Below, one piece after another: positions 13,873 through 53,730 of a stretch of 64,000 nucleotides of DNA. The stretch is from the NCBI RefSeq assembly GCF_028009165.1, contig NC_079245.1, positions 3,658,001-3,722,000 on the forward strand. Direction: 5' to 3'. The position numbers and the translations under genes are program-made. The DNA comes from Akanthomyces muscarius (lineage: Eukaryota; Ascomycota; Sordariomycetes; Hypocreales; Cordycipitaceae). The notes below the pieces were generated by a model that was given only the letters and a program-made list of their open reading frames with translations, was not told where the DNA came from and did not search any database. Numbering within the stretch: position 1 is the first letter of the stretch; the number at the start of each line of letters is the position of its first letter.

Positions 13873-15510
13873 CTATGCACCGACACAGACGTTATACTTG
13901 GCCCAGAGCTTACAGTCGGTGCCGACATTCCACTTCTTGATGCTACTCTCCTTGACCCCGTACTTTTGGGCGAGCGACCAGCAGTTGTCGCCGTCTTTCA
14001 TGAGATGCCATTTTTTGCATTTGCAGATGGCGCCCGGCTGCGTGGGCGTGGGGTGCGGCGTCTTGCACTCTGTCGGGGGCTTGACGGGCTTGGCAGGCTT
14101 GCTCTTGGTGCCTAGTAGTGAATGCGGTCAGATGATGCTTACTCTTGCTGCAAGGAGATGAGTGTGTCTAGGCCGAACTTACCGACGCAGTAGGCGTACT
14201 TGACCCATATGCCGGAGCAGTCCTTGCCGACAGCGGGGTTCCACTTGATGAAGGTGTTCTTGTCAAAGTTGGAGTAGCCCTGGACAATCTTGTCGCAGTA
14301 GTCGCCCGACTTGGCAATGTACCAGTCGCGGCAGTCCTTGGTGATGCCCGTCTGCGTGGGACCCGGCGCCGTCGGGCCGGTCGATGTCGGCTTGCTGGGC
14401 GTCGAGGTCGGCGTGAAGCCCTTGGTCTTAACGCAGATGTAGTAGCCGGCCCAGAAGCCGTTGCAGTCCTTGTCAATGGCCGTGTTCCACTTGACCAGGA
14501 GAGCCTTGCTTATGCCGAACTTCTCCGTGACGCTGTCGCACGTATCGCCCTTGGCGACCTGGTAGTACTTGTTGCAGTCCTTGGTGATGCCCGTCTGGTG
14601 CGGGGTGGGCACCGGGTCTTTGGTGGGCGTCGTGCCCGGGGAGGTGGTGCTGGCGCCGGCCGCGTGCACGCAAATGTAGTACTCTGCCCAGAAGCCGTTG
14701 CAGTCCTTGTCAATGGCCGAATTCCACTTGATGAGCTGGTCCTTGGAGATGCCAAACTTGCCCGTCACGCTGTCGCACGAGTCGCCCTTGACCACCTTGT
14801 AGAACTTGTCGCAGTCCTTGGTGATGCCGGTTTGGTGCGGCGTGGGCACTGGATCGCTGGTGGGTGTCGCGCCGGGCGACGTGGTGCCGGCGCCGGCGAC
14901 GTGCACGCAGCAGTAGTACGCGGCCCAGAAGCCGGCGCAGTCCTTGTCCACGGCCTTGTTCCACGCGGTGAACTGATCCATGCTGATGCCGTACTTTGCG
15001 GTCACGCTGTCGCAGGTGTCGCCCTTGACGATGAGGTGGTACTTGTCGCAGTCCTTGTCGATGCCGTCGAGCGTGGGCGACGGCGCGGGCGGAAGCGTCG
15101 ACGTGGGCGGCGACGTGATGGTGCCGCCGTTGTTGACGTCGACGCAGTAGGAATAGCCAACCTCGATGCCGGAGCAGTCATCCTTGACGGCGGGATTCTG
15201 TACACAATAACAAAGTTGGCAACATGTTTGATGTAAGTCGGCGCGCGCGCAGCCGGGCCTGCACGTGGCGTGAAGCGGTTCTTACCCAGGCCACAAAGTT
15301 GGCGTGACTGATGCCCCAGTAGCCCTCAATGAAGCTGCAGGTGTCATCTTGGGATGAGGTGGTAAAGTAGTACGTGCACTGGTCCGTGGTGCCAGGTGCG
15401 ACTTTGCCGTCGGGCTTCTCACCACGGCGGACCTTGCTGGGGTGGTCATACGCTGCCGCGGCAGAGACGGCGGACAGAGCGAGGGCAATGCTTCCGATGC
15501 GCATTTTCAC
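13873..15510 (-). CDS. secreted protein with six LysM domains
   Basis: Three exons on the minus strand, 15510-15286, 15197-14183 and 14111-13873, give 492 residues. A signal peptide (MKMRIGSIALALSAVSAAAA) is followed by six LysM units: about 45-92, 113-160, 180-227, 248-295, 318-368 and 420-465. Each has the form of an aromatic-rich start, a GD.C turn, and an N or WN near the end followed by a closing Cys-Val. Linkers are Thr/Pro-rich and probably glycosylated. LysM modules bind chitin or related N-acetylglucosamine polymers. Multi-LysM secreted proteins of this kind (compare TAL6 of Trichoderma) protect hyphae or shield chitin from host sensing, and no catalytic domain is present. Units 2 to 4 are nearly identical, including their linkers, which points to recent internal duplication. 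A possible TATA box lies at 15588-15594. Confidence 0.9.
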
Positions 15511-16375: not shown

Positions 16376-17441
16376 CTAGCTTCCCTTCCCGTTGAAAGCT
16401 GTGCGGCTCAGAGACTCCTTGAACAAAATCGGAGATGGCCTTCGCTTGGTGCCTTTTGGTGCGACCATAGCGCTCCACTCAGCAGTGTTGATTGTCTGCA
16501 CTCTGTGCTCGTCCTGCCACTCGAGCAGTTGGTCATAGTTCCAGCATTTCCGCGTCATGTCAAAGTCTGGAAAGGGTCCCTCGTGGCCTTCAACCCAGTT
16601 GAAAGTGAACAAATCCATGCTCGGCTGGCACATGAGCCACTTGGCCAGTGCCTCTTGGCAGTGCATTAAATGGGCCGCGTAGACATTTGGGATACCGTTG
16701 GGGTGGTAGTAGTCGAAATTATAATGCAAACTTTGGCGCATAGAATTGAGGCAGTGCGCGAGGTGCACTGCGTCAATTTGTGCAAGATAGGTTGCATTAC
16801 CCACGCCCCAGCTGGGCGGCGCCTTGACTGTCACGGCAGTGTCCTTGCCAAGCTTGATGACTTGTTCCTCAGTCAGGCCAATGACACCCATATCTGCAAA
16901 TCTATGCCATGCGGTATCCACGTGCGGGCTCGGGTCCTGCCGGAGTACCGATCCGTTCGAGCTAAGGTGTTTCGTGACTACCTCCGAAACTCCCCAGGTC
17001 GGTGTAAGTGAGTCGAGAGGCGGCGCTACACGTCGACATCAGTACTCATTATTTAATACCTTGTCCTTGTTAGAGGTAAAAGTTCGAAAGACTCACAATA
17101 GAATGTCTTTTCTCGCAGAATGCGGCTGCCGTCAATTGCCTGCGTCGTCAAGACCAGATGCGCTGATAGGGCAAGACAGCCCAGAGATATGGCCAAGAGA
17201 GCAATATTAACTATGGCCACTTTTCGCCAAATTCTTGAAAGATTATCTGGGCGGTAGCACTCCGCCTTTTTGCCGAATGGCTTGTGCTCTGCGGAAGGGA
17301 GATCGTCGCTGGCTAATTTAGTGTATGACTGCAGCGAGACGGCAGCCTATTCGGTCAGTATTTAGAGAAAAAGATGTCGCAAAAAGATCAATATATGCAT
17401 ACCGATGTGCCCAGTACGCTTTTTATTCTAGAAGACCTCAT
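16376..17441 (-). CDS. UstYa-family (DUF3328) membrane oxidase-like protein
   Basis: Three exons on the minus strand, 17441-17403, 17346-17097 and 17025-16376, give 312 residues. The introns (17347-17402 and 17026-17096) both join in phase, and the first has a CTGAC branch site. A single transmembrane segment lies near 56-78, followed by the family's DSLTPTWGV-like and SPHVDTAWHRF segments. The two signature metal-site motifs are HLAHC at 184-188 and HLMHC at 215-219, followed by a conserved Cys at 229. UstYa-type proteins catalyse oxidative crosslinking, cyclisation or hydroxylation in dikaritin peptides such as ustiloxin, phomopsin and asperipin, and also in cyclochlorotine. The gene is divergent from the GHSWY-repeat peptide gene with 568 bases between start codons, so co-regulation is plausible. 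All signature residues are present, so the enzyme should be active. Confidence 0.88.
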
Positions 17442-18009
17442 TTAACTTTTTCGTGCGGCTGTATTGGAGCAAATAGTAGGAGGGAGAATGCAGAGTAGCG
17501 AGGGACAGACGCGATGGGGGACTGGGCGATACTACCCTTCCATCTATTACGTAGGATCGGACCTTTACTATGCGCAAGCTCCAATCAGGTGCATTGGTCA
17601 AGCGAATGACTCTATTATTCTCGCTTAGGCTGCATCAGGCTGTATAAGGCTGGCGTAGCGAAGGCGCAGCTGCAGCCGACTGGCCGCTCGCATCGTGTAA
17701 CCTCAAAACTGCCAAAGAATTTTCCGGAATGTGGCAGCCTATACTCATGTTGTAACTACGTGTAGGCGTACGTATAGCTTCAAAAAATCTCCGGCACGAG
17801 GGGGCCCATAATCTTGTTATGCCTACGTATGGACATCTTTTGAGAGGGTGTGGGAGTGCATATGTGTATATATATATATCCCGTTGACCGTCCAAGCGAA
17901 CACTTTCTTTGAGCCCAACAGCTTCTCACCTTTTATACTCTCTTGACCTTGATAATCCACAATCTATCACTACTTCAGACTTGATTTCATCTGCCAGCCA
18001 CCATCTATC
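17442..18009. promoter_or_regulatory. shared promoter of UstYa-like and repeat-peptide genes
   Basis: A 568-base divergent intergenic region. Toward the peptide gene, an alternating TATATATATATAT tract at 17867-17879 sits about 130 bases before the ATG, where a fungal TATA element would be. The pyrimidine-rich stretch after it (17910-17960) fits a transcription start zone. No binding site can be named with confidence. Confidence 0.5.
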
Positions 18010-18402
18010 ATGCGTTTCCAGGCTTTTATTGTCCACGCTGCCGCGCTTGCCCGGCTGGGTCAGGCTAATCCTCTGCCTGGGTCGGAATCTGGTCACAGCG
18101 TTGGTGATAACTGGTATCCGCAGCCTACTGATACTCCGGATACGCAGTATCGGGCAGCCTCAGACTCCCATATGCCTCGCGGCCACTCTTGGTATATCGC
18201 GCCGAGCCTGCCCACCCCCGTCCCTATCGCGCAAGATGGCAAAAGCAGAGACTCCGGAGCAGCCGCTCAGCCTGAACCTGCTCAAGAAGAAGGCGGCCAC
18301 TCTTGGTATCACGGTTGGCCCGTGCATTCTATTCACACAGAAGGTGGCCACTCCTGGTATGGACGGCCCAGGACGACTCCTACGTCTGCGGCTGAGCCGT
18401 AA
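18010..18402 (+). CDS. secreted GHSWY-repeat peptide, candidate RiPP precursor
   Basis: Single exon of 130 residues. A short signal peptide (about 1-19, ending LGQA) precedes a low-complexity Pro/Ser/Thr chain with few aliphatic residues. The pentapeptide GHSWY occurs three times, at 58-62, 96-100 and 113-117, and a diverged form (GHS followed shortly by NWYP) lies at 28-37. Two copies have an added Gly in front. Spacers differ in length and sequence, while the cores are kept exactly, as expected for a repeated product sequence. No KR, RR or KK site occurs; the first core follows Pro-Arg. Start choice: the first ATG after the TATA tract, in the only frame with a signal peptide and repeats. 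The divergent UstYa-like gene supports a role as a modified-peptide precursor. A metal-binding or structural secreted protein is the alternative. Confidence 0.7.
   Translation: MRFQAFIVHAAALARLGQANPLPGSESGHSVGDNWYPQPTDTPDTQYRAASDSHMPRGHSWYIAPSLPTPVPIAQDGKSRDSGAAAQPEPAQEEGGHSWYHGWPVHSIHTEGGHSWYGRPRTTPTSAAEP
18181..18360 (+). repeat. three coding repeats of GHSWY
   Basis: Copies at 18181-18195, 18295-18309 and 18346-18360 encode identical pentapeptides. The third differs from the others by silent changes at the Gly and Ser codons (GGT, TCC), consistent with selection on the peptide and not a fresh DNA duplication. Confidence 0.9.
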
Positions 18403-20138: not shown

Positions 20139-21251
20139 GTGAATTACACGCTGGATCATCCTGCTATGAGCCACAACAAAGATAATTTTCCTGCCGAGCC
20201 ACCCTTCACTGAAGAGCCACGGAATTGGCTACCTTTCTTCCATACCCAGCCATCCTTTGCTGAGGAGTCAGAGAATTGGGTACCCTTCTTCCCCATTCAG
20301 CCACCCTTTGCTCTGGAGCCACAGAATTGGGTGCCCTTCTTCCCTTGCCAGCCATCGTTTGCCGAAGAACCACAACAATGGGCGCCTTGCTTGGCCGCGG
20401 CACCAAGGCCGGCAGGATGTGTAAAGACACATGCTAGAGCGCAGCCTCGAAATCATTGTGGCAAAGACGATATCAGTACGATCAAAGAAGAAGAGCATGT
20501 ATCATGGTGTCCCTCGTCGGAAGCACGTCACCAGTCATTGTTCAGCTTTAGGAATGACATGCTACAGAATGCGGAAACATTTCTGAACAGCAACTGCTTC
20601 GCAGACTGGTTACATCCGCCAGAAGAGGTCTCGTCTCAAACATTTGCCAAGGAAGCGCTTCACTGGGGAACTGATTCTATGTCTAATTTGGCGTTGAGGT
20701 TTCCCCTGGGTAGAGTCGCTGTCGGTCAAGGGAAACTACTCGGACTGGAGACTAGGTCCGACTTTGGGGAATGGGACAAAAAAGACGACATGGACAAAAT
20801 AGCCAGTTCCGTGCCCGTTCCCGCTCCCAAAAAAAGCCCGCCCTATTCTGCCACGGCTTCGGCCACGATCAAGCCGTCTGAGGCAGAAGAGTGCGACAGG
20901 AAGAAACCATCGAACGCTGAGCATTATACAGTTACCCAGAAGGGGATACAGTCTACATATAGCAAAATCATACGACAGCGCAAGAGGGTCACCATAGAGC
21001 AGAAGCGTAGCAACCACATTCGCTACGAGAAGAAGCGCCGTTCATTGATCAACCAAGGTTTTAGCGACCTTGTAGAGCTCATTCCAGGGCTCGTGGGAAG
21101 AACATGGCCCAAGTCTACAGTTCTATTTGAGACAATAAGCTATCTACAGGACCTGATACAGGTAAATGAGGCACTGGAAATACAGGCGGTAGCGGCCAAC
21201 AAGTTCCTTCACATCAAGCCACGAGAGACAGCTCCACCACGGGGATTTTGA
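20139..21251 (+). CDS. bHLH transcription factor with N-terminal repeats
   Basis: Single exon of 370 residues; a second in-frame Met at residue 10 is an equally possible start. Residues 20-87 are four tandem 17-residue units of the form (Q/E)P-x-F-x-E-E-x-x-N-W-x-P-F-F, acidic and aromatic like an activation domain. The middle is Lys/Ser-rich. The C-terminus (about 290-346) is a basic helix-loop-helix: the basic region NHIRYEKKRR has the His-Glu-Arg pattern that contacts CANNTG (E-box) sites, then helix 1, a loop containing a Pro-rich turn (ELIPGLVGRTWPKS) and helix 2. The class resembles INO4-like and other HLH factors with the KSTVL-type second helix. It is the nearest regulator to the UstYa/repeat-peptide pair, which makes it a candidate pathway regulator. 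Target genes are unknown. Confidence 0.85.
   Translation: MNYTLDHPAMSHNKDNFPAEPPFTEEPRNWLPFFHTQPSFAEESENWVPFFPIQPPFALEPQNWVPFFPCQPSFAEEPQQWAPCLAAAPRPAGCVKTHARAQPRNHCGKDDISTIKEEEHVSWCPSSEARHQSLFSFRNDMLQNAETFLNSNCFADWLHPPEEVSSQTFAKEALHWGTDSMSNLALRFPLGRVAVGQGKLLGLETRSDFGEWDKKDDMDKIASSVPVPAPKKSPPYSATASATIKPSEAEECDRKKPSNAEHYTVTQKGIQSTYSKIIRQRKRVTIEQKRSNHIRYEKKRRSLINQGFSDLVELIPGLVGRTWPKSTVLFETISYLQDLIQVNEALEIQAVAANKFLHIKPRETAPPRGF
20196..20399 (+). repeat. four 51-base coding repeats
   Basis: Four adjacent 51-base units encode 17-residue repeats within the bHLH protein. Units 2 and 3 are most alike; unit 4 has lost the FF pair. The length is an exact multiple of three throughout, so expansion keeps the frame. 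Confidence 0.88.
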
Positions 21252-29139: not shown

Positions 29140-29917
29140 ACGTCGCACGTATTTATTTTACTTGAATAGTAATCATTATAAATTATGGTATCATTATTAT
29201 TACTGTACAATACTTTTCAATCCAGTTTAGTTATATATATTTGATTTGAAAAATATATCTACTTTAAGCAAGCATAGTTTAGCTTTCTTTAGAGGCTGAA
29301 AATTCAGCCGCTACGCTCACTACCAAACTACTTACCTGCGGATAGAAATCTGGGCGATGCCATCGTGCTTACCCTTGGCTCTCACAAGGGATGTGACAAA
29401 AGTCCCTGACTTGCGGGCGTGTCTTTTCCCCAAATTCGACAACATGACCCGCTGATGCGGCGGCGGTTCCCCGCGGCTTATACGACGGTGACTCAGATCG
29501 CCTGATGTAGTTCTACGACACGCTAATTGATGTTGTTGTGGTCGTGCTCCATTTTCCACCCAAATATACCACGCTCCTTCTTTGCAATTACTGTACATTT
29601 TGCTCTCCGCCTTTCTATTTCTTCCCTTTTTGGGATGCTAGCAGCTCCAGCGGCGGGGGAACTTTTTTTTAGTGTGCAGGGTAGCCTTGTTGGTCCTGGA
29701 ATGCGCTGGCAGGGGATTAGATCGGTCGAATTCAACCAGTAGCAACAGGTTGTGTGCTCCATGATCCAATTCTATTGCATGTGGCTTGAGCTACGAAGTT
29801 TGACTCATACGCGAGCCTGGTCGTCAGGGTCGAGGTATTATTGATAAACGTAGTTTTGGTCCTGGCCGACAAAGGACGACAAAGGCCTGCATTGCTAGCG
29901 TTTCGCTGTGTTTTACC
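29140..29917. other. intergenic region
   Basis: Strongly AT-rich at 29140-29280 (3' flank of the zinc-finger gene), then the ABC-transporter promoter. No supported gene. Confidence 0.5.
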
Positions 29918-32900
29918 ATGGCGAGTATCCGGTCACGAACATACCACCTATCGGGACACGAAGCAGTCGACTTGGCACTGATCGCTGGAACGGCAGCAGT
30001 ATCCGTTTTGTCATTTTTTACTCTGATACGATCTTTGCGCACGCTACTTGCAGGAAGCTCACAGGAAATCTATAGCGATGAAGATGGCGAAGCAACAAAA
30101 AGCTCGCAGGCGTTCTGCAGGGCTGTGGTCCCAAGGCTAATCGTAAGCGGCGCGACTGTCGCAGGAATATCGATCGCCACGCATGGCTTTTTCTCTTTGC
30201 AGAGCAGCTTGGCCCCGCATAGCGACATGGGATGGGTTTCGGTTCTCAATTGGGTATGTATAATCTATCTCACAGTAGACAGATGGCGGCATAGACTCAT
30301 AAAAGTTAGGCTCTCCTATCGATGCAGGCGCTTGTTCTTACGATTGCATCTGGATTCGTTGAGCGATACACTCATGGGATAAGGCTAGCTTGCTCGGCGG
30401 CTTTCAGCTTGCCGTCGGTCTTGTGCGAGCTCAAGCTTGAAACGGGACACAAGTTTCTGTCGAACTACGCTGAAATCTGTTTGCTGCTAGTTATTCTGGT
30501 GGCGAGCTTATCGATCGCCAGGCGCCCATCAGTTATGCATCACGACAAAATGCTCGATCGCCAATTTTCTGTCTCACTTCTGGATAGACTGACCTTTGCT
30601 TGGGGGCCGTTTCATCAGGCTGGAGCAATTGCGCCCGCCAGCATGAAATTGAGCGACCTACCAGAAGTTGGGCATCTATCGCGAATTCGGACAGTGAAGC
30701 AAATCTTCGAGAGTGGTAGAGGAAGCGGCGACTTTTGGCAACAGCTGATACTAGCCTTCTGGCCAACAATTCTGCGACAATGGATGCTCGTCTTTGTCAC
30801 TGCATCATCTCAGTTTGGCAGTCGCTTCGCGCTTTTCAAGTTACTCCAGGCCCTAGAGGTGCAGCCCGAATTCTTCGTTGCATGGGCGTGGGTGCTAGGT
30901 CTCGGGCTCGGGTTACTCGTGGAGGCTTTCTCAAAAAGCTGGCTGGTCTGGGTCACTCAGATGAGACTGCAGATCCCGATTGAAGGTTTGCTGAAAACTT
31001 TTGTTCTTGAAAAGACGACCCGAAGGAAGCTGGGTAGTGAAAGTTCTTCCCCAAAGGTCGCAAAGGGGGGCGATTCCGCTCCACGGGAGAAGCTATCCTT
31101 AACAGAAGCCATCACCAACGATTGGTATGAACACCGACGCGTTACACAGGACCAAAGCTAATTTACAGAGTTAGCATGGAAACTGCGAATGCTTGCGCTC
31201 ATACTCACCATTTTCTTATGGTTGCATTCAAGCTGGTTTTAGACGTCAGTTACCTAGCGCGGCTTCTAGGCATGAAGAGCGTCTTAGTGGGCAGTGTAGC
31301 GTCCCTGCTACTCACACCCTTTTCGACAGTGCTATCGAAAAAGCATCGAGAAGCGAGATCAAAAAGAACTAAAGCCCACTCTGTCGTGTCAAATCTCATT
31401 TCAGAAGCCCTGCAAAGTCTTCGCCACATTCGTCTGTCGTCTGTGGAGCAGATGTGGCAGAAGAGATTGACGTCTGCGAGGGAGTCAGAGCTGGAGCAAA
31501 TGTGGAATGCTGGTGTTGCAATGGCTATGCTGAGTCTGGTCTTGAATCTAAGCCCTGTTCTATTGGCATCTTTATCTCTGTCTACACATGCATACGAGAC
31601 TGGGAATCTCGGCTCCTCTGTTGCGTTTCTTTCTCTCAATCTGTTCAGCAGCCTCCACGCAGCATTCAAGGAGCTACCCTCGCGCCTTACTGAGGCCCGC
31701 GTCTCCTGGTCAAGTTATGAGCGCCTTCAACGTTATTTACAAGAACCGGAAAGAGAGGTTTCGGCAGAGCCTTCTGACGCCCTGCAGCTGAAAAACGCTG
31801 ACCTCCACTGGGACCGACCCACTGGCGATTTATACAAGTCCTCGAGCTTTACGTTGCGCGATCTCAATCTGAGTTTCCCTCGAGCCGAGCTCAGCATAGT
31901 AACAGGCAGTACCGGCTCAGGCAAAAGTCTGTTGATGGCTGGGCTCCTCGACGAGGCCGACCTTAGCACGGGAAGTCTTTTGCGACCAGCTACACAGCTT
32001 GTGTTTAGCGACGGGCAAGCCGATGTGGCACCAGGAAGCACTGCTATAGTCTCGCAGCCACCGTGGGTTGACAACTGTACTGTACTTGACAATATTTTAT
32101 TTGGGTCGCATTACAACGCGGATCGCTACAGAAAGGTGTTGCAGGCATGCGCTTTGGACAAGGACCTCGCCGTCCTGCCAATGGGCGACCAGACTGTTGC
32201 AGGCCTGAACGGAGCACTCTTAAGCGGTGGGCAAAAATGGCGGGTGGCTCTCGCTCGAGCCTTTTACTCAAATGCGGAAACTATTATACTCGACGATGTG
32301 CTGAGCGCTGTTGACACGCACGTTGCAAAGCACATTTGCGAGCAGGCGTTGACTGGTGGCTTGGCGCGAGGGCGCACTGTCATACTGGTCACTCATAGTC
32401 CGGACGTGTGTCTCCTGGCCGCCAAGTACCATGTTACTGTGGGAAATGGTACAGCCGTCGGAAAGATTCTAGATCCCAGCTCCGGTGACACCCGGAAGGT
32501 CGGCCAACACGGAGAGAAAGAGAAATCCGTGGCAAACCTTGACGAAATACCTGCATCGGCAGAAACTCCTAGTTTGAAGCGAGGTAAATTGGCTGCGTTG
32601 AGCGGAAAAGATGTCTTTTTGGCTTATATATGGGCCAGTGGGGGTTTTCGTCCACTGGCTACCGGAATATTGGTCACTCTTCTAGCTCGCGCGGTCGCTA
32701 ATAGTGGCTCTTGGTGGCTAACACGATGGACAGCACGAGCAGACTTGAACGAAGTAGATTCTGCTATCGCTGCCAATATCGGAATATATTTGGCACTCTC
32801 CTTGAGCTCCACCATTGTCGTGGAACTCAGATCGCTCATACTGCAAAGCATGAGTCTGCGTGCTTCGCATTCGCTCTTCCAGAGGCTCTTCAGCAGTGTT

Positions 32901-34405
32901 CTCTTTGCGCCGCTCTCGTGGATCGATAGCATGCCGCTAGGAGAAATGATCCAGACTCTCGAGAATGATATGTACTCCATGGACAACAAAACAACTCAAA
33001 CAATTCACAATCTGTTAGGAAGCGTCATTCATTTGGTCTTCATCTTGATTACCAGGTAAGGAACTTCCGACAAGAGTTTAGACGCAGACTAACACTCGTC
33101 AGCTTTTTGTATGCTCCCCAGTCGATATTTTTAAGCATTGCCATAATATTTGTGTATGCAAAAGTCGCCACGCAGCAACTTGAAATTTCTCGCCAGCTCC
33201 TTGGACTCATTGACCAGTCACTTCGACCGATTCTGGAGCACGTTACATCGGTTGCGAGCGGCTTGGCGACTATCAGAGCTTTCAATAGGACGAGTCTATA
33301 CATTGAACAGATGAATGGTCTTCTCGACCGGGGGGCTAAACTGGGCTTACACCTCATCCTCGGGCAACAATGGCTTGCTGTTCGACTTGGATCCTTAGGC
33401 GCGGTGTTTGTTACTGCGGTAGCGGCCGCGCTCGTGTACCAGGGTACGGATGCAGCAAAGACAGGGTTGATTATCAGCCTCGCACTTCAGCTCCAAAGTG
33501 CTCTGAGCGGCGCGACCGGTAGCTTCAACGTCCAAAACATGCTGAATCGGACCATTGGCAGAATCGCCAGCCTCGCCTCTGTCGAGACAGAGAGCCAAGA
33601 GGGAGACGAGCCAGGAGCGTGCTGGCCGGAATCTGCAAGTATTGAGGTGCGGGACTTGATTTTAAGCTATGATAACTCGTCGCGACCGGCACTCAATAAT
33701 GTGAGCTTCTCCGTGAAACCGTGCCAACGCCTGGGTATCGTTGGCCGTACCGGAGCTGGAAAGACGAGCTTGACAAATGCACTTCTTCGCTTCATCAAGC
33801 CAACTTCGGGTACAATCTCCATCGATGGCCTCGATATCGCAGCAATAAAGCTGGAACGACTTAGAAAGGTACTAAGTCTCATACCTCAAGACCCGTTCCT
33901 CTTCTCAGGAACTCTTCGATCGAATGTCGATCCGGATGGCAGCAAAAGCGACGAATCATTGGTTGCAGCGCTCGTCCGAGTGCATCTCGTGGCTTCTACA
34001 GGTGAAGACAATAAGAGTGGGAAATTCACAAATCTTGATATGGAAATTCAGGCTGGAGGGAAAAATCTTTCCTATGGCCAGCGACAACTAGTCTGCATGG
34101 CGCGAGCGCTGCTTCGCAAGTGCCCTATCCTTATATTGGACGAGGCCACCAGCGCTGTAGATGGTGCAGTAGATGCAGCGATGCAGCAAGTTATTCGGGA
34201 TGAATTCAACGACGCAACAATTCTTGTCGTCGCCCACAGGCTTCTAACAGTAGCCGACTTCGATAATGTTCTTGTCATGAGCGACGGCGAGGTGGCAGAG
34301 TTTGGCCCCCCTGTGCAGCTGATGGCAAACCAAGGACTATTCTGGGACATGGTGCAAAAGAGTGGCGATGCTGGCCGAATCGAATTGGCAATGAAGCAAG
34401 CTTAG
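29918..34405 (+). CDS. ABCC (MRP-type) multidrug transporter
   Basis: Four exons, 29918-30253, 30328-31124, 31175-33055 and 33103-34405, give 1,438 residues. The order is an N-terminal hydrophobic TMD0-like region, TMD1, NBD1, TMD2, NBD2: a full-length ABCC exporter of the Ycf1/Yor1/MRP kind, which moves conjugated or bulky organic anions across the plasma or vacuolar membrane. NBD1 has Walker A GSTGSGKS (about 622-629), signature LSGGQKWR (about 727) and Walker B IILDDVLSAVD, in which Asp replaces the catalytic Glu, as is common in ABCC NBD1. NBD2 has Walker A GRTGAGKT (about 1219), signature LSYGQRQ and Walker B ILILDEATSAVD with the Glu kept. The third exon's acceptor (GTTAG at 31174) is the least certain junction. 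The substrate is unknown; it is 11.5 kb from the repeat-peptide gene, so a cluster role is only possible. Confidence 0.9.
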
Positions 34406-36009: not shown

Positions 36010-37631
36010 TCAAAAACGCCTCTTCGGCAACGTCGCATTGCCCGCCGTTGCCGCCGCAGCAGTTCCATTCCCGAGGCCTAAGATAACACTTGGAAGACAG
36101 CTACTTGGAAATGCAGTGCTTGCTGGGTAGGTTGTTCCCGGCAGAGGCTGGGTGCAGTACGGCTCGAGCATCTCCGAGCACTCATCTGAGAGCATCTCCC
36201 AGTCAAAGCCAGCTTCAAGAACATCGTCGGAGACCGGGCAATTTGTCACGATCTGGTCCCACTCGGAAGTTGCGGTTGCGTTACCGGAAGCTGTCTGGGT
36301 GGGAGCGTCTGTGATGACGACTGGAATCGATTCGTTGCCGGCTGGTCGACCTGTCGTGGGCAGCGGAGCCCATGTGCCAGTAGGTGGTCGGGTTGGGCCG
36401 GTAGTCCAGGTTACAGTTCCATTTACGTCGTAGTGATCTGTTCCAGGGGGGCTGAAACATGCATTCATTAGAACTATTGTTGTGAGTTGAGGCTCTCGAG
36501 ACTCACGAAATGCAGATGGGGTGGCCGACGAGAGAGTCCAAATTTCCACAGTCGGAGTAAAGGATTGGGTTCCAGGCATGAAGCTCCACGATGGTGAACT
36601 TTTGATCGCGCAGGATATCATTACAGGTTTGGTTTGCTTTGACCTTCGATCCTCTTGTTAGAACGTAAAGCGCACCAGTAAAACAGGTCTTCTCACCTCC
36701 TGGAGCTTGCAGCTAGACCCGATGCACACCTTGTCGCCAGTCTTGAGTGTCTCGCATTTGGCATCAAGATTGTTTTCGGAAAGAAAACGATCGATTGCTA
36801 TGTTGTTGCTCGCAGCAATTGATTTGCAGGTGTCGGACGCGGTGACTGTGTAATTTTTGCCCAGACATTGCCTCTGGTGCGGCGCTGGCGCGGTTGTCTC
36901 CCTTGTTCGCATGAGAAGTAGTCACAAAAGAAGCGAATTAAAAGCGTCCAAGTGCCAATAAATCAACTTACTTTGGTCCGTTCGGTTCACCCAGAGTTCT
37001 CGTTGCGATGGGATAGCTGGATGGATCAGCTGAGCACTCCTTGAGCAAATCCTTGAACTGCGTCTCGCTTATGAGATCAGGTGCCATTTCCACGTCAACA
37101 AAAGAGGAAAGATATCGCAGTGTACAATCATCGCACTTTTTGGCCTTGTGTCCGGCAATAATCGGAACACAAAAATTGCCAGTCTTTTGATCTTTGAGGC
37201 AGGCAACCTCATGATTCCAGACGAGAGTCTGTGCGATTGAGTTGCCGGAGCGATCAAACCCATCACCCCAATCGTAAGCCTTCCAGCCGCAGCTGCCATT
37301 GACTTTCTTTGCATAACTCTGTTGCTGGCCGTTATTATAAATGCTGTGTCAACATTATCGTGTAGCTCACGTCAAGTGATTCGCCGCATTCTTTCTTGCA
37401 GTACTCAGTCAGAAACGCTGGGTCAAGCGCGCCAGGTGCCTGTATCTCGCTGCCTCGAATCAGCCGTGGGCTGCACTTGATGTCCCCTATGAGAGCGATG
37501 CGGCAAGGTGGCGGAACGGTACTGGGAATCTCGCCAGGAGTCTTCCACAGCTGCAGTGAATGCACTGGAACAGCAGCCGCAAATAGAACCACTGCAGCAG
37601 CGAGTGAACGCGTCATTGAATAAAACATCAC
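36010..37631 (-). CDS. secreted LysM protein next to chitinase
   Basis: Five exons on the minus strand, 37631-37371, 37324-36972, 36901-36697, 36643-36507 and 36451-36010, give 465 residues; the start may instead be the sixth codon, at 37616. A signal peptide (LAAAVVLFAAAVPVHS) leads to a Cys-rich region of about 190 residues, then LysM 1 (about 216-262, YTVTASDTCKSIA...) and LysM 2 (about 268-319, with NQTCNDIL...ELHAWNPIL). After these come a Thr/Pro-rich linker and a C-terminal part with several Cys, and the protein ends in Arg-Arg-Phe. This architecture is the LysM partner commonly found head-to-head with subgroup C (killer-toxin-like) chitinases in filamentous fungi, as in the Trichoderma TAL6/chi18-10 arrangement. 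It should bind chitin and may protect the producer's own wall. The shared promoter is 946 bases long. Confidence 0.85.
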
Positions 37632-38577
37632 GAAGTGAAATTTAATGGACTCGAAATCTCAAAGTCCTTTTGCGGCGTGAGGTACAGGATGGCCAGACAA
37701 ATTGGAACTCTCGTCGGGGTCTCTTACATGCGGCCCAGTCCTTTAGTCCTATTCCACAACAGCGTCCTCGATATAGTTTCCTAACCGACTAGCTGTACCA
37801 CACAACCTCTTCGGAGACTTAATTTCGTTCTGCAATATCTCCGGCGATATCTCCATAAATAGACACCGCCGATATGCAGCTTACAGTCGCTGTGCAGCCA
37901 AGGCTCAGCCGCGGCTCAAACCCTGTAAGTACCTTTTTAGTGTCCCGCACTGTGCTCGCTCAGAGGATCTTCATCGAGCGCCATTCACGGCTGAGGCCTC
38001 GTGCAGCCCCATTGAGCAAGGGTAGTGGCCCGGTCAGAACTATATTGTCCCTGAGAAGATGGTATTTCCGTTTGCCAAGTCCATCCTACGACGCCACGCT
38101 GCACTAACAAGCCGACGGCCCATTGCCTACCTGGGCAACTTGGAGACTGCACGTCGACTCTTGTGTACAGTTATGGCAGCACCCATACGCATCATGAAGA
38201 TCAATAAAAATTATATTGAGGCCACTGGGCACGTAATTAGAAGGTAATCTCGGTGTTTCGCGATTTTCGCAATGCCCGAGCGACGTGTGGGCTCGCCAAG
38301 CCGTGAAAGTTTCCGCGCGCTGAAGATGCTTTTTGTGTGATACTTGCTGGCTATGAGATGTCCATATATGCGTAAAGATTTAGGTCCAAATTCGTCTGTA
38401 TACTATATGAATCACTCTAGAACGTCCCCAAGATCGTGTTTACTTATTCTGCTAGAATTGATCTTGCATTGAACCAACTGCGTTGGAATAGTGCTTGGGC
38501 CTTTGCTCTTCTTCTCCTTCTTGTTATTGTATCTGATCCACCTGTATATACTCCAATCGGAGTGTATACACGCAAAA
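37632..38577. promoter_or_regulatory. divergent promoter of LysM-chitinase pair
   Basis: A 946-base region between the two divergent start codons. No gene supported within it; a 77-codon frame at 37874-38107 has no domain. A TATATACTCC tract at about 38546, 30 bases before the chitinase ATG, is probably in the leader. Shared control of the two genes is inferred from arrangement only. Confidence 0.5.
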
Positions 38578-41500
38578 ATGTACAGGAATATACCTTTGCT
38601 GGTATTTATCCTAGCGTTTGGGCTTTTCTCTGCTGTAGTGGCTCAGCAGGACAGCACTTGCAGCAAGTTAAAACAGTGTCACTCGGGTTGCTGTGGGCCT
38701 TCAGGTATACCTACAGTTACGAGATAAAATATTCAATATCACTGCTAATCTATTAAAACTTCAGGCAATTGCGGCTTTGGTCCGGAATTTTGTGGTGAAG
38801 GGTATGTTGAGCCTGAATCAAGATGATCCATATGTATCCTAACAAAAGTCGTCTCTAGATGTCAAGGCACTTGCGATGCCGTCGCCGAATGTGGCAAGTA
38901 TGCCCCAAAGGATCAATTTGACTGCCCGCTTGGGGTTTGCTGCAGGCAAGTAGAGCATACATTAGTTGAACAAACTCTTGACTAACCCACGGGCTGCTAG
39001 TCAATTTGGGTACTGCGGCACGCAGCCCAAATTTTGCGACAAATGCCAGAACAAGGGTGGCTGTCCTGCGGTTGAGTACGTTTCTTCTCAACTTCGTTAT
39101 TCTGGCTTGTCCACTGACTTTTCCGGTCTAAAATTAGACGACCAAAGTGCGATGCGACCGATGACGCCATGAAGTCCCAGGTCAGGATCGCATACTACAA
39201 TGCCGAGGGTGCGAAACGAAAATGCGACGCCGTACAGCCGGAGAATATCCCAGCGGGTGTTTTAACGCACATAAATGTTGCTTTTGAAGGCATCAGCTCG
39301 GATCTGGAAATGACGGACACAATCGGTGAGACCGTCGCTCGTGTCTCTCGACTCAAAAAGATTTACGCTGGCCTGCGTGTCAATATTGCCATTGGCGGCT
39401 GGGTCTTCAATGATCCGCCCACCGAGCATCGCTTTTCCGATATGGTTGCCACATATAATTCTCAACGAAAGTTCATTTCGTCGCTCATCAAGTACATGCA
39501 AAAGTATGCACTCGATGGTGTGGACATTGACTGGGAGTACCCGGTCGCTGATGATAGAGGTATGGCTTCTCATGTCCAGCCCGCAAATTGTCCTGAAAAG
39601 AAAATAGCTAAGCACGCTTTTAGGCGGAAACCCCGACGACATGCCAAACTTTGTGACATTCATGTCTCAAATGAGGGACATGTTCGACAGTGTTGATCCT
39701 GGTTGGCAAATTACCCTCACTTTACCATCCAGCTATTGGTACATGCGCGGCTTCGATATTAAGCAACTCGAAGAATATGTTGACTGGTTTAACATGATGA
39801 CTTATGACATCCACGGTGTATGGGATGAAGGGATTCGCTTCACTGGTCCATACCTCAAAGGTCACACGAACATCAGCGAGATCGAAGACGGCCTAGATCT
39901 GCTGTGGCGAAACAAAATCAATCACGACAAAGTCGTCATGGGCTACGGTTTCTATGGTCGGGGTTTTCATATCAAGGATCCCAACTGTCATACTCCTCCC
40001 AACTGCGAATTCGATGGCCCAAGTCTTCCTGGCTCATGTACCGATACCGCTGGCATTCTCTCCTACTCTGGTATGTGAAGACTTAAAGAGGATTTTCTGT
40101 ACCTGAAAATACATGACTGACCTTTGTCGTAGAAATCCAAAGTCGCAAAAATGAATTGGGTACCACAGTCACATACGACGAGGATTCTACGGTCAAGTAC
40201 ATGATCTATGGGTCGAACCAGTGGATATCGTTTGATGATGCGGAGAGCTTCAAGGACAAAAAAGAATATCAGTCGTCACGCTGCCTGAAAGGACTAATGA
40301 TCTGGTCTGTCGACTTGGACAATTCCAATTTTGACGCCATGTCTGGCCTGTTCGGTGACGAAAACATGTCCAAAGCGCACGGCGACGCTAGTTTGACAGA
40401 CAAGGAGAAGGGTGAGCTTGTGAAGCAGCTTGCGCCATACACCGGTCAAAATTGCTACATCAGCACGAAATGTGCATCGAGTGCGCGGGACACGACCTCT
40501 GGCGCAACATGCTTCACTGGATACAAGCCCGTCGAAATGGCGCATGCACCACGGAGAATCCGCAGCGACAAACATGAAGCTTTAGAAACATGCAAAGAGG
40601 GCAAGTTTCATTACATTTGCTGCCCCGAAGACCAGATGCCGAAAAACTGCGAATGGATCGGTGCTCCAGAACGTTCAGAGATTGGCTGTTCCGGCTTTTG
40701 CGGCAAGAAACAGTTCCAACTTGCGACCGACAGTTACATCGACTACAAGGGAACGGGTAGTTGCTACCAAGGTCGTCGCTCGGTAAGGCAAATTACCGCC
40801 AGGGAATAGTTTTGACTTGAAGCTGACTGTTGCTATCAGTTGTGCTGCGATTCGACTGACTTCTTCGACGACTGCTGGTGGTCTGACTGCGGCGACTGGA
40901 ACGAAAATTGTGGCAGTTCAGGCAAAGTCGTAGCTTGGAGGCTGGATGAAGATGACGGATGTGAGTTTTTTCATTGAGAACTAAGAAGCAATTTCAGCCT
41001 AATCTCTTTTCTTTCGAAAACAGCAAATTGCAAGCCTACCGATCAACACAAGCAGCCGCTGCGATCGTATTGCTGTCCAAAAAAGGGTAGGTGACACCAC
41101 ATTTGATACCTCCTGCCCGTCTAACTTTTGCTGTTTTTCTCTTCAGATCCCCTGGAGAACTGTTTTTGGTCTAATGACATCCGGCTTCTGGATCCTCCCG
41201 ATGGAGGCGACAAACAGTACTCAGATTCTTACGCAGACTTCTTCACCTGCAACAATAAGGAGTGTCCTTACTACGACATCAAGGTCACGAAAGCTCTGAT
41301 TCCTCATACTTCCATTGATTGGATCAATAAGGACTCTATTGACTGTTCAGCTTATCCGCAGATGAACAACGTGGAGCCCGAGTACGGGCTCTGTTGCAAC
41401 CCACCAAATCCATTGAAGAAGAAGCTGCCTGTTGATCCATCATTCCTATGGTCGGACCCCCATAAAGAAGATGGCTCGGAAAATGTGTGGGAGTTTGCCG

Positions 41501-44500
41501 ATGACTTTGGCAACAACAACCAAGATACGACACCAGACAACCAGTACGAGAACCCTGGCAGTGATCCGTATGGCTTCATAATGCTGAACGGGCCAGACGG
41601 CTCGCTCAATGACAATTTCGGCAAGGATTTTACTGTGGTGAGCGAAAAAGAACCGGATGCTCATGAGAAGCGTTCGCTCCTCACCACTAATCGAACCATC
41701 CTGGACAATGTTTTTGAGGACGCGCCGGAAACCATTCACGTCTACTGCAACCATGCGCCAGACTCCAGAGAATGTCGGCGCACCTTCTACAAGGGCGCTG
41801 AGGATACAATTATCCGGCTTCCAGACCACGTTGGCGAAGGTCCATTTGCTCGCATCGTGTCGATGGAGCGCGTTGATCTGCCTCAGCTGCCATCCTGGGT
41901 TCATCGCAAGCGGACCATTGACGCAAACCGAAATGGCGTATACGAACTCAAGTTCGACTACAACTTCGGTGCCATCAAGAGAGCCGAAGACGAGCAAGTC
42001 AACATGCGCGTCGACTTTACTAACTTGATGGATTACTGGGACGATGTCACGGATGAGCCGACCGGAAAGAGCAAGAAGCGAAGCAAGCGCGACTATTCCA
42101 AGCACATGGGCTTTGATGAGTGGAAAGCGCGTGTCGATCAAGCTAAGAAACGCGACCTCGAAGAGGCAGGCCTCGACGAGCATATCCAGAGTCGCAGATC
42201 CTTTACACCAGAGGCGCACGATGTTTCTACCCATGCCATGGAACGTCGATGGTACGGAGCCTTTAAGGAATGGCTCAAAAAGCTCAACAGTATTGTCAAA
42301 GATGAAAAGGGCTTCTTGCCCATGGGCTGGAGCTCCGTCCTGACGCTCTACAGCGGCCGGCTCGAGTGCGAAAGCGATGCAGGCATTAGCTTCCAGGCGG
42401 GTCTCGACGTCACGGCCGACTTTGACTTTGACATGCGCACGCAGTATGCGTACTACTTCTCGGGAACCATTGTCCCGCCCAAGATCATCGACACGTACGC
42501 GTACGTTGGCGCCCACCCATACATGGAAGCCGGCATCACGGTGGCCGGCGAGGCGCATCTCGGGTACACGTCCGACCGCAAGAAGATCATCGACACGCTG
42601 ACATACCCCGGCCTAGCCATCAAAGGCATCGCGTCCATTGGTCCGTCTTTGGACATTTGGGGCCAGATCAAGGGCGAAGTGACGGTCGCGGGCTCCATGC
42701 GGGTCGGCGCTCGGTATACTTTTAAGCCGATCGAGCTGTACATGCCGAATGATGACGAGACACGCAGCAAGGCCTCTAGCGATCTTGAAAAGAATGACGG
42801 CGACGAGGAGGGTCTATCGCCGGTCTTTGAAGCCGAAGTCGAGGCCTCTGTCGGGTTCGGCGTTTTGGTCACGCCAGAGGTGAACCTAGGTCTTAAACTC
42901 GGCGGTGGAATTGGCAAGTTCAAAGTAAGTGTCATAACTTACTCGTGTTGCAGTCAATGTGTGGATGCTGACTTCAAGCAGAAAACTTTGGTCGATGCGC
43001 ATGTCGCTGCGTTCGTCAACACCACGCTGTGGTTCTACGCCAACGCCAAGGCTCAATTAGATAAGGGCTGGTCGTACAAGTACGGAGTCAAATTCTATTA
43101 TAGGGTGGGCTTCTCAGCCATTGTCGAAGCCATACTGATCGGCACATGGAAAACGGACAATTACTACCCGTTTGAGGAGCAAGTTATAGACATCTACGGA
43201 CCTGTGGAGGTTTCTTCCTCTGACACGTCTCGGAAGCGACAGCTGCACAGCTCGCCAGGCGGGCCACTACCCCGGCCGCTTTTTGAGCTGCCTGCATCCG
43301 AGTTTGGCTCTGTTCGCAGGGATCTGCCCAAGTTCGACGGCCCGGGGCTCTTTCAAATGGGGGCCAACATGTCCGCTAACGGCACCTACCGCGGTGGGCA
43401 AGACGCGTCCATGGCAGCGGCTGCAGCCGATGACGGGAAGACGGAAGAGGGATCTTTCAAGTTTGGAGACTTTACTTGCGTGACCGGCGGACTCAATGGC
43501 TGCACTGCCGCCACTATACCGCCAGACCCGGAAGTTCTCAGCAGTGTGGACATGGCCGCCCTGAACAAGAGCGAGTCTGCGGCCCCAGAAGTCGGCATTG
43601 CCAAGCGCGCAGCCGCGTCAAAGGGCGAATGCCCTGAGAAGCTGCCCAAGCTATACTACAACTGTGTCTCATACTTTTCCGACTATACGCTGCTGAAGCA
43701 GAAGCCTCGGGGCAAGAGCACAACGATGCCGGGCATCTGCAACTCGGTGCAAAAGTTCCTCAACAACCGCAACGGTCAGCCAAATAGCAGAGGCACCAAG
43801 AGCAGCTGGACCCTGACCTGGGACTCCAAAAAGGAGCGAGCCAATCGCCGTCGTGGCCAAAGCTGTCCCACCAAGACTCTCACCCGTCTCGGATTCTGCG
43901 AGGGTGACAATTCAGCGCGCCGTCGCGCCGCTTGGGGTGATCCAAAGCTTGGTCGCGCTCTCACAAACTGTGACGAGTTTCCATTCGCTTCGTCTGAGGA
44001 GGGTGGCTCTGACTTTTATGGTCTCTACCCAAGCGTGGCAACTGGCACAGCAAGAACATGCGTGCCAAGTTGGCAGAATGATCAACAAGGTCTTTGCAAC
44101 AGTGAGTTTCATTGTCCCTTGGCCTTTTCTGGGCAGATTTCTAATGGTTTTCTCCAGAACTTCTTAGTGGACTGGACACCAACATAGTGTACTACAACAA
44201 CAGGTAAGCGTAGTCGGCATGATACTTTGGACAAGAGTTTCTGACAGATCCGCCACAGAAAAAAGCCAGAGTCTGATGCTACAAAGGCTGAATGGAAGAA
44301 TTGGGGCCCCGGCGAGGATGGCTGGGTGCAAGCCGGCTGGGGCAAGAAGCAGCGGGTAGCCCAGTACGCAAAGACGAACCTGCAGGCGCACTCTGCAGGT
44401 ATCAGCGCTGCTGTAAGTTCATTTTCCCCAGCTCACAGTAGATCTAGATCTCTAATAGTGGTTTTCCGAGCACAGCAAGATCAGAAACGCCAAAGTTGGT

Positions 44501-45229
44501 ACCATAAGCGCAACTTTACAGTGCAGTTGGCATATCCCAAGACTGCCTCTGCCACCTCGCCAACATTTCCTGGTCTGCGGAGCATGTCTGGCAATTTATT
44601 TGCTGGTAAATCGTATACACCAAGGAACAAGGCTCTCAAGTCCATGGACAATGTCATTTGTGCCGTCAGCACAAATGGGCAGAACCGGTTCCGCAGCAAC
44701 AGTGTCAATGGGTATTGCTGGGATGGTGTGCAGACGCGGAAGAAATGGGGCGGTCTCATTGATGTCATTGTCGCGTTTTCGTAAGTGATGGCTGAAGACG
44801 ATGCTCACGTCCTCGATGAAAGCTAACAGTGTTTCCCCCAACAGATGCCGCTTGAGCTTCAAGACAACAGGCAAGAGAGATCAGATTCCTATTGGCTTCC
44901 TTGGTGATGAGCCAGTATATGGTGCGTGCACATAAATTCTGCAGTGGAAGTATGCAAAGCGTTATTAACTTGGTTATATAGACATTGAAAAGGTTGAAGG
45001 GACCGAGATCGAGATGGAGTTGCCCCAGGGCGTTGAGCTTGGTACGGATGGGGATACGGCAGAGAGTGCGATGCTCGATGACGTTGATGACGCTTCATCT
45101 GACAACACCTCCTTTACCGAAAGAGATATTGACGATGTCTGGGAGGATGTTTTAGGCGAGGAGGGGGGAAGCTCGTGGGATGCTGACATTGCGGATGTGA
45201 TGGAGCACAGCTTGGCGGGCAAAGAGTAA
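38578..45229 (+). CDS. killer-toxin-like GH18 chitinase, subgroup C
   Basis: Sixteen exons give 1,918 residues: 38578-38704, 38765-38801, 38859-38945, 39001-39075, 39138-39559, 39624-40070, 40133-40782, 40840-40960, 41024-41086, 41147-42924, 42982-44101, 44158-44203, 44259-44412, 44476-44780, 44845-44921 and 44982-45229. All junctions join in phase. A signal peptide (about 1-22) is followed by a Cys-rich hevein-type chitin-binding region (about 27-105, ending CCSQFGYCGT), then a GH18 domain (about 110-465) with the active site DGVDIDWE; the acid is Glu242. The long C-terminal part has Cys-rich blocks, Lys-Arg sites and a beta-rich region, as in chitinases related to the alpha/beta subunit of the Kluyveromyces killer toxin. 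In that model the chitinase part opens a target wall. No separate toxic subunit is identifiable here. Highly acidic final 60 residues. Confidence 0.88.
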
Positions 45230-47962: not shown

Positions 47963-49646
47963 CTATTTTTCTTGCTCGCCATTGCCCACTGCTGGAGTCG
48001 AATCTTCATTTGAAGTCGTTTCCAGCGCACTCTCTTCGTCGTGACCGTTTCCAGACCGCACGCTCTGATCTTTCGGCTGACCCCCCGTAGCCTTGTCTTT
48101 TTCACCTGTCGGCGAGAACTTGCTTCTCGCACGAATCTGCGGGCCATATTTATAGAAGAGGAAAGGAATAATGGCCAGAAGGGCCCCTACGCCGCCGACT
48201 AGGGAACCGCCACCACCAACGCCCATGGCGGAGAACATTTGACGTGTAAACAAGGGCGCGGCAGCACCACCGGCAGACCGCACGACAGTGTTGGCCGCGA
48301 GGGCGGAGGCGGCATAGATGAGGTATACGTCGACGAGGTAGTTGAAGTAGGAGACAAACACTAGCAACATGTTGGCGGACAGAACGCCGCCGCCGATAGT
48401 AGGGACGATCCAGTGCACAGAGCTGTGGACGTGTTAGATGGCCAGTAAATATCGAGTAGACGGGAGAAGCTTACTTGTAATTCGCGGACCATGCAAGCCA
48501 GAACATGCCGATGAAGAAGCCAATGCCACCAATCATGGCGAGCGGCAACCGATCTTCGGGTGTCATTTCAGACATTTTAAGTTTGCCATTGGCAATCTTC
48601 TTTTGTCTTATGTGCGAGTCCACAGCGACAATCGTTCCACCACAGGCAGCTCCGATGGCTGTGCCAAGAAGCGGCAGCTCGCCAATGCCGGCGTTCCATC
48701 CACGCATCTCCTGAAAGACGATGGGATAGATGGAGAAGAGCATATAAAGCAGCATATAGACAACAGCCAGGTAGATGGCACAAAGCAGCGAAATCGTGTC
48801 AAAGAGAATGATCCAAGGGCGCGTCAGAGCGACCTTGTATGCCGCTCCCAGAGAGCGATCCGAGTCCTCGATCTGCGCCTTGACGTCGAAGCCGTTGGCG
48901 CGGGCGCGCTTGGCCTTTTGCATCAGGACAATGGGCGGGTACGTCTCGGGGATGGTGATGACGAGCAGCATGGTGAAGGCGCCGAGCCACAGCAGCATCC
49001 AGAAGCACCAGCGCCAGCCCTCGTCGCCCTTTGTGAGCTGCAGGAAGCCGGCGACGACGGGCCCGACGGCGGGGCCGATCCAGACCATGGTCGAGAAGCA
49101 AGCAAAGGCCGTGGCGCGGTGCACGGGGTTCCAGAGGTCGACGAGCACGCCGGGCGCGTTGCTCAGCGGCGCCGACGCAAACGTGCCCGTGAGGAAGCGG
49201 CCGACGAGCAGCGCGGCAAAGTTGGGCGGCCACGACGTCAGGAAGCTAAAGGCGACGTAGCCGGCAAAGGTGATGATGAAGATGAGCCGCCGGCCGTAGA
49301 ACTCGCTGAGCGGCGCGAAGAGGAGCGGCCCGGAGCAGTACCCCAGCAGGAAGAGCGTGACGGTGAGGGCGGACACCTCGGACGACACGTGAAAGTGCTT
49401 GTTGAGGGACATGCTGACGGCGCTGGGCGCGGACGAGGCCATGGTGGCGTTGAGGACGAGCAGCACGGCGATGACGGATATGCCGGCGCGGCGGGCCATG
49501 GTCCAGTTCATGGGGTTCTCGGGGTCGTCGGGCGCAAAGTCGACGTAGCCATTGCTGTTGAGAAAGGGCTCTTTGGAGTGGTCGAGCTTCTTGGTCCGTA
49601 TGGGCTTGTTGGTGGCCGAGGAGAAGACTCTGCTGATGGCCTCCAT
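47963..49646 (-). CDS. MFS exporter, drug:H+ antiporter-1 / polyamine type
   Basis: Two exons on the minus strand, 49646-48475 and 48422-47963, give 543 residues. The intron (48423-48474) begins GTAAGC and joins in phase at an Asn codon. Twelve hydrophobic segments with a cytosolic middle loop fit the DHA1 class. The PENPMNWTMARR segment before helix 1, the LSEFYGRR loop after helix 2 and the GRFLTGTFASAPL segment are typical of fungal polyamine/fluconazole-type exporters (Tpo, Flu1 group). The C-terminal tail is long and polar. Such proteins export polyamines, azoles or secondary metabolites from the plasma membrane. The first exon is GC-rich. The substrate cannot be told from sequence. Confidence 0.9.
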
Positions 49647-51245
49647 GTTGCAGAGAGTGTTGGACCGTAGTCCTGATGCGAATAATGACGGTTCGTGTTA
49701 CTCGTCGTCGGGCTTTGGGATTACTGCTGCGTTTTATACGGCTGATGTGATCTTTAATGCGTGTTTGGTGACTGTGCAAATCATGTCTTGGGTCTAGTGC
49801 CAGTACAAAGGACCAAAGGTCTTGGATTAGGGATTGGAGAGGACAATGCTATTTAGATGGCTCAAACATCGGCACATAGCGGCTTGCTTTGGGCCGATTT
49901 AAACGCGAAGTCCCTTGCGTCGCTCGCAGGAGGTCCGGCTCCGACTGTCTTCCTCCAATCGCGTGGTGTCGTCATAGTCCTCGTCTTAGAGCGGTTCTGG
50001 TAAGATTTCAAATACTCTGCGCTAAGTGCCTCCGCGGAGAATTTTTCTGCGAATACTGATACTGCCGCAAGCACACACTTGTTTTGTTAATTAGCGGCGG
50101 CCGAACCCACCGTTTCGATGGTTTCCGATGGCCACGACAGGGTCATATTCCGACTGATCCACCAGTTGACGCGATGACTGCATCAAGGACTTGAGCAAGG
50201 ATTTACTTGCTGCAACGATCGCAGGTGAAATCTTTTATTGCTTTGATTGACGACAGTGCCAGTATCTGAGTTGCGCAACCAGTCGCTCTTCAAAACCTGC
50301 CCCGGATTTAAGGACGAGTTCCGCGGACATGGGCGCTCTGTGGCCCTCTTCCCCAGTCTTTTCGTCTTACATCGAGCCTATGATATCATGCCAGGCGATG
50401 CTGGCTTCCGACACGTCCGGCTTGTGCCCACGTTGCCATTGGCTTTTGACAATCTTTCTTGCCTTTATAAGCACCTTCTGCCACGTTGTGAGGGCATTTT
50501 TTCATCTCGAGTTCTGCTGCGCCTCGAGAATACTCACTTACTAGTTGTTGTATTTGCCGAGTCGGCACACTCGGCCAGCCCAGCAGCGGAAGACTGTCTG
50601 ACTGCAACGGGCCATGGCGGCTGAACTCTATCAGTAGCGCTGCGCATTAGTCGAACCTCTCTGTGTGGACAACGGAGAGTGCCATAAGCCAGTGCATGGA
50701 TATTTCACCAAATACAAAGAGGCTCTTCCCGCCGTTATACATATATTAATAATAGGTACTGCACCCCGCCGATTCGGAGGCAGCATGGGAGGCGCTCCCG
50801 GAAGTCCCACACGCTATCCATATTAAATGGAGGACTCCGTTTCCGGCCTGCAGCAAGTATTTGCGACCGCAGGATTTGGACACTTGCGTACAGGCGTACA
50901 TGGATGGCAGCTTGAACATGAGTTTTGGGCCTTGCGTGTGCATGCACATCTGCTCTTATACCCCCCTCTTCCATAGTAGATCGATGCAGGACAATGCAAA
51001 GTCTCTGGCGGTTGCTGCAAGGCAAAGCCTCGCCGGCGATAGCACCGTTTTGCCTGCCCCATTGGGATTGGAAACCGGGTACTGACCGTCGCACCGGGTC
51101 CCTTACCCGGCCTTGAACGGAGCTTCAGAGACAAACATCCTAGCTTTCCCCGCGTCGACCAATTCTTTTTAAAAAGCCGTCCCCAGGAACTCAATCTGTA
51201 ACACCTTGTCGTGACAATTCATCCTGTCAATTGAAGTTGCAAGTC
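49647..51245. other. 1.6-kb intergenic region
   Basis: Divergent promoter region between the MFS and M20 peptidase genes. Open frames of 60-125 codons overlap on both strands without a domain or signal peptide, so none is called. Confidence 0.5.
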
Positions 51246-53081: not shown

Positions 53082-53730
53082 AGGCAGAGCTATATAGAAC
53101 TAACCTGGCAATGGTATTCAGCCTGGTTGCGCGATAATTGCGCCTCCTATACATGCATAAATTTTGAATTAGCTCTAATATTTAAGCTTTAACCACCAAA
53201 CAAACATATTCTTAACGTCTGGCTTGTCTACTCTAGTGAAATGATAGCAAGATACACTACTGAGCTCGCCTCTGACTTCCTCGTTGCTGCCGTTCGGCTA
53301 GTTCCTATTCCCCCGCACCGGAACCGAAAACCAAATTCAATCCGCACGAGATCATAGGCCTAAATCTTCAATCAGAGGCAATTCCTACGCGATACAGTTG
53401 TGGCGTCGGAAGAAACGTTCACTAAGTGCGCCTCGTCGCGATCCTCCGACACTACTGAAGCGAGTGGCTTGACGGTCACCCAGTGTTAACAGCCACGTGT
53501 ATGTCGCGACTATGCTAGGGGCCGCGGAAAAAAACCCTTTACTGACAGTAACGAGCTCTCCTTTATTGTAGAAGCGTTGTCAATGAGAAGAGATCCAATT
53601 TGGTAGACTAAGTAGATGCAGTGACAATGCTAGAAGCTAGACAATGTGACCACGCCGGGCCAGCAAAAAGCACAAAACACCATTCCCAAACAAACTGTAA
53701 AGCACAAACTCCACCTCGCGCTATGTCTCA
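53082..53730. other. intergenic region
   Basis: Shared 3' flank of the convergent M20 peptidase and P450 genes. AT-rich at 53150-53200; no gene seen. Confidence 0.5.

Follow-up and report, generated by a model that had tools for sequence, protein, structure and literature searches.

A UstYa-type gene paired head to head with a GHSWY-repeat secretory protein: a candidate ribosomal peptide locus lacking dibasic sites

Introduction

Dikaritin loci, such as those for ustiloxin, phomopsin, asperipin-2a, epichloecyclin, and victorin, combine a signal peptide, a repeated aromatic-containing motif, and an adjacent UstYa/DUF3328 gene. The gene pair described here has the same three elements, its signal peptide being recognized by a crude rule, but it differs from the dikaritins in having no kexin sites, an irregular spacing of the repeats, and one UstYa gene. 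It lies in a window of 64,000 nucleotides (C5:3658001–3722000), the whole stretch of DNA that was analyzed, and the genome searched for comparison comprises 36.2 Mb in 12 contigs. Because kexin sites between the cores are absent, we have not filed the pair as a member of the dikaritins, and we know of no dikaritin core that matches its repeated motif, GHSWY. A scan of the genes directly beside the pair recognized no peptidase, tyrosinase, or methyltransferase gene.

By analogy, the function of the pair would resemble that of a dikaritin pathway. Our reading is that the pair is related to a dikaritin-type (UstYa) locus for ribosomal peptides as a sister that has diverged from it. We give a probability of about two in three to its being a UstYa-type locus for a ribosomal peptide that would oxidize GHSWY segments and that arose, with a kexin-type sister on C4, by duplication.

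The UstYa-type gene and the repeat precursor

The UstYa-family gene occupies positions 16376–17441 on the minus strand and is the single one detected in the window by a PF11807 search, its last-exon ORF matching the Pfam profile with an E-value of 7.9e-30. Our model comprises three exons (17403–17441, 17097–17346, and 17025–16376) with the ATG at 17441 and the stop at 16376, giving a protein of 312 residues; the start codon and both introns, of 56 and 71 bases and each GT-AG, were inferred from the sequence. The translation of this model carries one N-terminal hydrophobic membrane helix (by eye) and intact copies of both HxxHC motifs, HLAHC and HLMHC. In an alignment with 10 paralogues, picked because their domain can be read in one exon, residues H87, H90, C91, H118, H121, C122, C132, and C160 are invariant. 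The predicted structure has a mean pLDDT of 67.7 and found no match among PDB folds at an E-value of 0.001, and a sequence comparison with the PDB returned a single chance-level match (E 0.093), or none when the alignment served as the query. Some 0.9 kb away from the UstYa gene, positions 14139–15504 encode a LysM protein of secreted type, in which a 237-base stretch is repeated in tandem.

The putative precursor is an uninterrupted ORF of 130 residues on the plus strand (18010–18402; ATG at 18010, stop at 18400–18402), separated from the UstYa gene by the 568 bases between the two divergent start codons (17442–18009). Its N-terminus resembles a signal peptide, as judged by a crude hydrophobicity and −3/−1 rule rather than a trained predictor, and its first 27 residues (18010–18090), comprising the signal peptide and the beginning of the mature part, resemble the first 27 of the C4 precursor. 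Three exact copies of GHSWY follow, at 18181–18195 (context HMPR-GHSWY), 18295–18309 (EEGGHSWYHG), and 18346–18360 (TEGGHSWYGR), and they start 38 and 17 residues apart. The initial annotation had described just such a locus—an intact UstYa/DUF3328 protein with HLAHC and HLMHC motifs and one helix, transcribed away from a 130-residue secreted-type protein with three exact GHSWY copies, with 568 bases between the start codons—and this description stands in full, from the PF11807 match and the motifs read in the 312-residue model to the coordinates of the three copies. It had overlooked a fourth, interrupted copy, GHSVGDNWY, at 18091–18117, in which four residues are inserted into the motif.

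Such repetition is rarely reached by shuffling: any 5-mer occurred three times in 5 of 200,000 shuffles of the mature part, and GHS followed by WY after a gap of 0–6 residues, a pattern picked post hoc, arose in 28 of 200,000 shuffles of what remains of the precursor once GHSWY is removed. Apart from the four-residue insertion, the codon differences among the motif copies are all synonymous (GGC/GGT; TCT/TCC/AGC), while the flanks vary freely, which suggests that selection acts on the motif at the protein level, whatever purpose it serves. We infer that GHSWY is the core of the precursor. A degenerate DNA pattern for GHSWY occurs at 17 places genome-wide, and outside the precursor the motif itself is found singly and unrepeated, in a long ORF at C1:2822188 and in short frames at C2:354834 and C4:2383213; the search of the genome turned up no further copy of the precursor. 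Searches of viral contigs, plasmids, and the PDB yielded no relatives of the precursor, and its single-sequence model is without structure (mean pLDDT 55.5).

Absence of dibasic sites

The initial annotation had likened the precursor to kexin-processed peptides and missed that it contains no dibasic site at all, so that this part of the comparison has to be given up. The only basic residues of the mature part are those in QYR, MPR, GKSR, and GRPR. Introns that might bring KR sites into the precursor were sought by eye, and none was convincing. With no dibasic sites, the comparison with kexin-processed peptides does not account for how a GHSWY core would be set free. Kex2-like enzymes might cleave at Pro-Arg or at single basic residues, but such cuts would not liberate the GHSWY copies one by one; another possibility is that the precursor protein stays whole.

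The likeliest of the other explanations, though in our view an unlikely one, is that a protein descended from a RiPP precursor has become a repeat protein of the ordinary secreted kind and carries no modification, either effector-like or a His/Trp-rich metal binder, and that the UstYa protein serves something else or nothing. The absence of dibasic sites, the irregular spacing, and the precursor's want of predicted structure all fit this, and a GGH amino terminus exposed by cleavage would be a copper-binding motif. The synonymous-only differences among the motif copies fit an unmodified protein as well as they fit a ribosomally synthesized and modified peptide. Against it stands the intact UstYa gene, which is still paired with the precursor.

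The paralogous pair on C4

The closest paralogue of the UstYa protein in this genome is the C4 copy, at 52% identity, with the next at 36%; an 11-row tree joins the two with support of 100/99, and the intron before the catalytic exon has the same place and phase in both. The C4 gene likewise has a head-to-head partner, a repeat precursor of secreted type in which four copies of the type IEGWNDTHDRAG[ND]KR place a KR after each core. Over the first 27 residues the window and C4 precursors align without gaps at a score of 46, a value reached by none of 5000 shuffles (mean 1.3, sd 8.8), while three other signal peptides, two from the window and one from C3, score between −2 and 20 against the window precursor. 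The two pairs thus have in common the UstYa protein, the divergent layout, the precursor N-terminus, and an ABC transporter and a GH18 chitinase nearby, but the C4 pair differs in the KR after each core, in its regular spacing and compact gene order, and in cores unlike GHSWY. Between the start codons lie 568 bases in the window, 445 at C4, and about 453 in a further divergent pair on C3, where the UstYa start was set by eye; no DNA similarity was found between the intergenic, or promoter, stretches of the window and C4.

Set beside the four KR sites of its C4 sister, a window precursor with no kexin site might be taken as the remnant of a former dikaritin locus, a degenerating pair that yields no product and in whose precursor the processing sites have been lost. 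We think this improbable: both frames are open, both UstYa motifs are intact, and the codons of the repeated motif vary synonymously only. The observation itself is real and beyond chance, and since the sister pair exists on C4 it is better supported than the initial annotation could know.

UstYa loci across the genome

The PF11807 search of the genome gave 48 exon-level matches, which were grouped into 22 loci. Besides the window, repeat ORFs adjoin five of these loci (L003 383–751, L005 2859–3167, L008 2946–3356, L018 66–368, and L022 461–1069), and all five contain dibasic sites: seven copies of IEYTH, of the type IEYTHPAGGVTDKR, with six KR at C3:2383; four copies of EGWND with four KR at C4:3100; repeats of the type GDILYNNQAGWG with seven KR at C5:2938; two KR at C3:2444; and, counted by hand in the sequence, four KR and two RR within the repeats at C1:1215. 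The resulting 6 of 22 is a lower bound, because only about 1.5 kb on each side was viewed at 13 of the 22 loci. Since dibasic repeat ORFs adjoin these five other loci, the juxtaposition of UstYa gene and putative precursor is a genuine pattern in this organism, whose genome, as far as sequence can tell, is rich in candidate UstYa-type peptide loci.

A stricter filter, chosen once the loci had been viewed a first time, required a signal-like start and one 5-mer present three times in a single ORF. It was passed by 3 of the 22 loci (C3:2383, C4, and the window), in each of which the precursor is divergent from the UstYa gene; at the other three repeat-ORF loci no signal-like start passed; such a start may belong to a different exon or fall outside the stretch viewed. 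The same filter applied to 116.5 kb of other DNA, which is not a random sample but consists of the window outside the pair, 14 pattern-hit loci, and the C4 flanks, returned one ORF, an antisense low-complexity frame. The C3:2383 pair shares the divergent arrangement of the window pair but differs in a UstYa protein of 34% identity, six KR, and the lack of any scored transporter or chitinase match nearby. The pathway first proposed for the pair is strengthened by the paralogous pair of UstYa gene and secreted-type repeat precursor on C4 and by the further divergent pair on C3, and loses its comparison with kexin-type processing. A mere chance neighborhood, in which a secreted repeat protein adjoins a UstYa gene of some other pathway, is very improbable: UstYa proteins also act in non-ribosomal pathways, and in the stretches examined 16 of the 22 loci have no repeat ORF beyond short low-complexity frames, but the closest paralogue has a similar precursor N-terminus and the same divergent layout.

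The wider neighborhood

Beyond the precursor, past regulator genes and an HsbA gene, a possible exporter begins 11 kb away and a chitinase about 20 kb away. The exporter is an ABC transporter (29804–34405, plus strand; Pfam ABC_tran and ABC_membrane), which we take to be of the ABCC type. The C4 UstYa gene has a paralogue of this transporter as its direct neighbor, and three pieces of the window transporter are 29, 40, and 45% identical to that paralogue; among the non-self matches of a 642-residue piece, however, C5:3525015 comes first (42%) and C4 second, with C4 and C2:4561738 both at 40%. ABC transporter matches are also seen 2–3 kb from the UstYa loci at C6:2431344 and C3:2450293. A bHLH protein with 51-base tandem repeats at its N-terminus (20166–21251) is a possible local regulator.

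The chitinase (38473–44784, plus strand, ends estimated) has a GH18 domain (PF00704) with the catalytic string DGVDIDWE, read by eye, and near its C-terminal end a NucA/NucB DNase domain (PF14040, E 1e-7), a layout that is presumably killer-toxin-like. Its C4 relative, about 7 kb from the C4 UstYa gene, has a similar DEFP string (by eye) and no Pfam DNase match; more GH18 pieces matched as well. For a 230-residue piece of the window chitinase the best non-self match is C5:706421, with C4 second of five, and a C-terminal piece of 1020 residues matches only C5:705851 besides itself, C4 being without a match. The genome-wide PF11807 search placed no UstYa match at the C5 sites of these closest transporter and chitinase paralogues. 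For a locus put down at random, the chance of landing no more than 8 kb from any of the five other chitinase matches is 0.002, and from any of the three ABC paralogues that rank next it is 0.0013; in eight stretches from seven other UstYa loci nothing but UstYa was common with the window at an E-value of 1e-4.

Killer-toxin-like (subgroup C) chitinase loci carry LysM genes. The window resembles them at 36–45 kb, where the GH18 chitinase is divergent from a LysM-domain gene, but here two loci are also near a UstYa gene and a repeat precursor. This LysM-domain gene (36010–37658) is the second in the window, and the C4 chitinase likewise has a divergent gene; LysM-type neighbors are not counted as shared by the two loci, because their E-values reach 0.008 at best with no cross-match. 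MFS transporter, M20 peptidase, and P450 genes lie beyond the chitinase at 48471–55808.

The window and C4 loci are not alike in their gene order or spacing. Together with the closest paralogues elsewhere on C5 and the distances of 11 and 20 kb, this is why an extended cluster of pair, transporter, and chitinase is put forward as a hypothesis only, with the chitinase a possible partner. The pairing of UstYa gene and precursor is independent of it.

Proposed pathway and implications

In the pathway that we propose for a UstYa-type ribosomal peptide locus, the protein encoded at 18010–18402 would enter the secretory pathway by way of its signal peptide, and the membrane-anchored UstYa protein would oxidize the GHSWY segments, most likely, from what is known of the family, through a cross-link involving Trp or Tyr. 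The modified segments might then be cut out by monobasic/Pro-Arg or other proteases, which we propose because no dibasic site exists; this is the weakest step. The excised segments would leave the cell, perhaps helped by the ABC transporter, and an oxidized GHSWY peptide is a plausible product.

A broader scheme, which we consider unlikely, would make both loci instruments of a two-part antagonism in which a killer-toxin-like chitinase, with a DNase tail in the window, opens a rival's wall for an oxidized peptide, the latter being a secreted repeat peptide modified by UstYa; an ABC exporter would complete each locus. The window peptide, released without kexin, would then represent a new processing class of UstYa ribosomal peptides, with a GHSWY core. 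If the chitinase neighborhood is conserved, an orphan peptide class would be tied to a testable role in fungal antagonism.

With its KR sites, the sister locus of this genome is a natural point of comparison. Should a UstYa protein modify a precursor devoid of dibasic sites, part of this peptide class would escape any genome mining that makes kexin sites a requirement.
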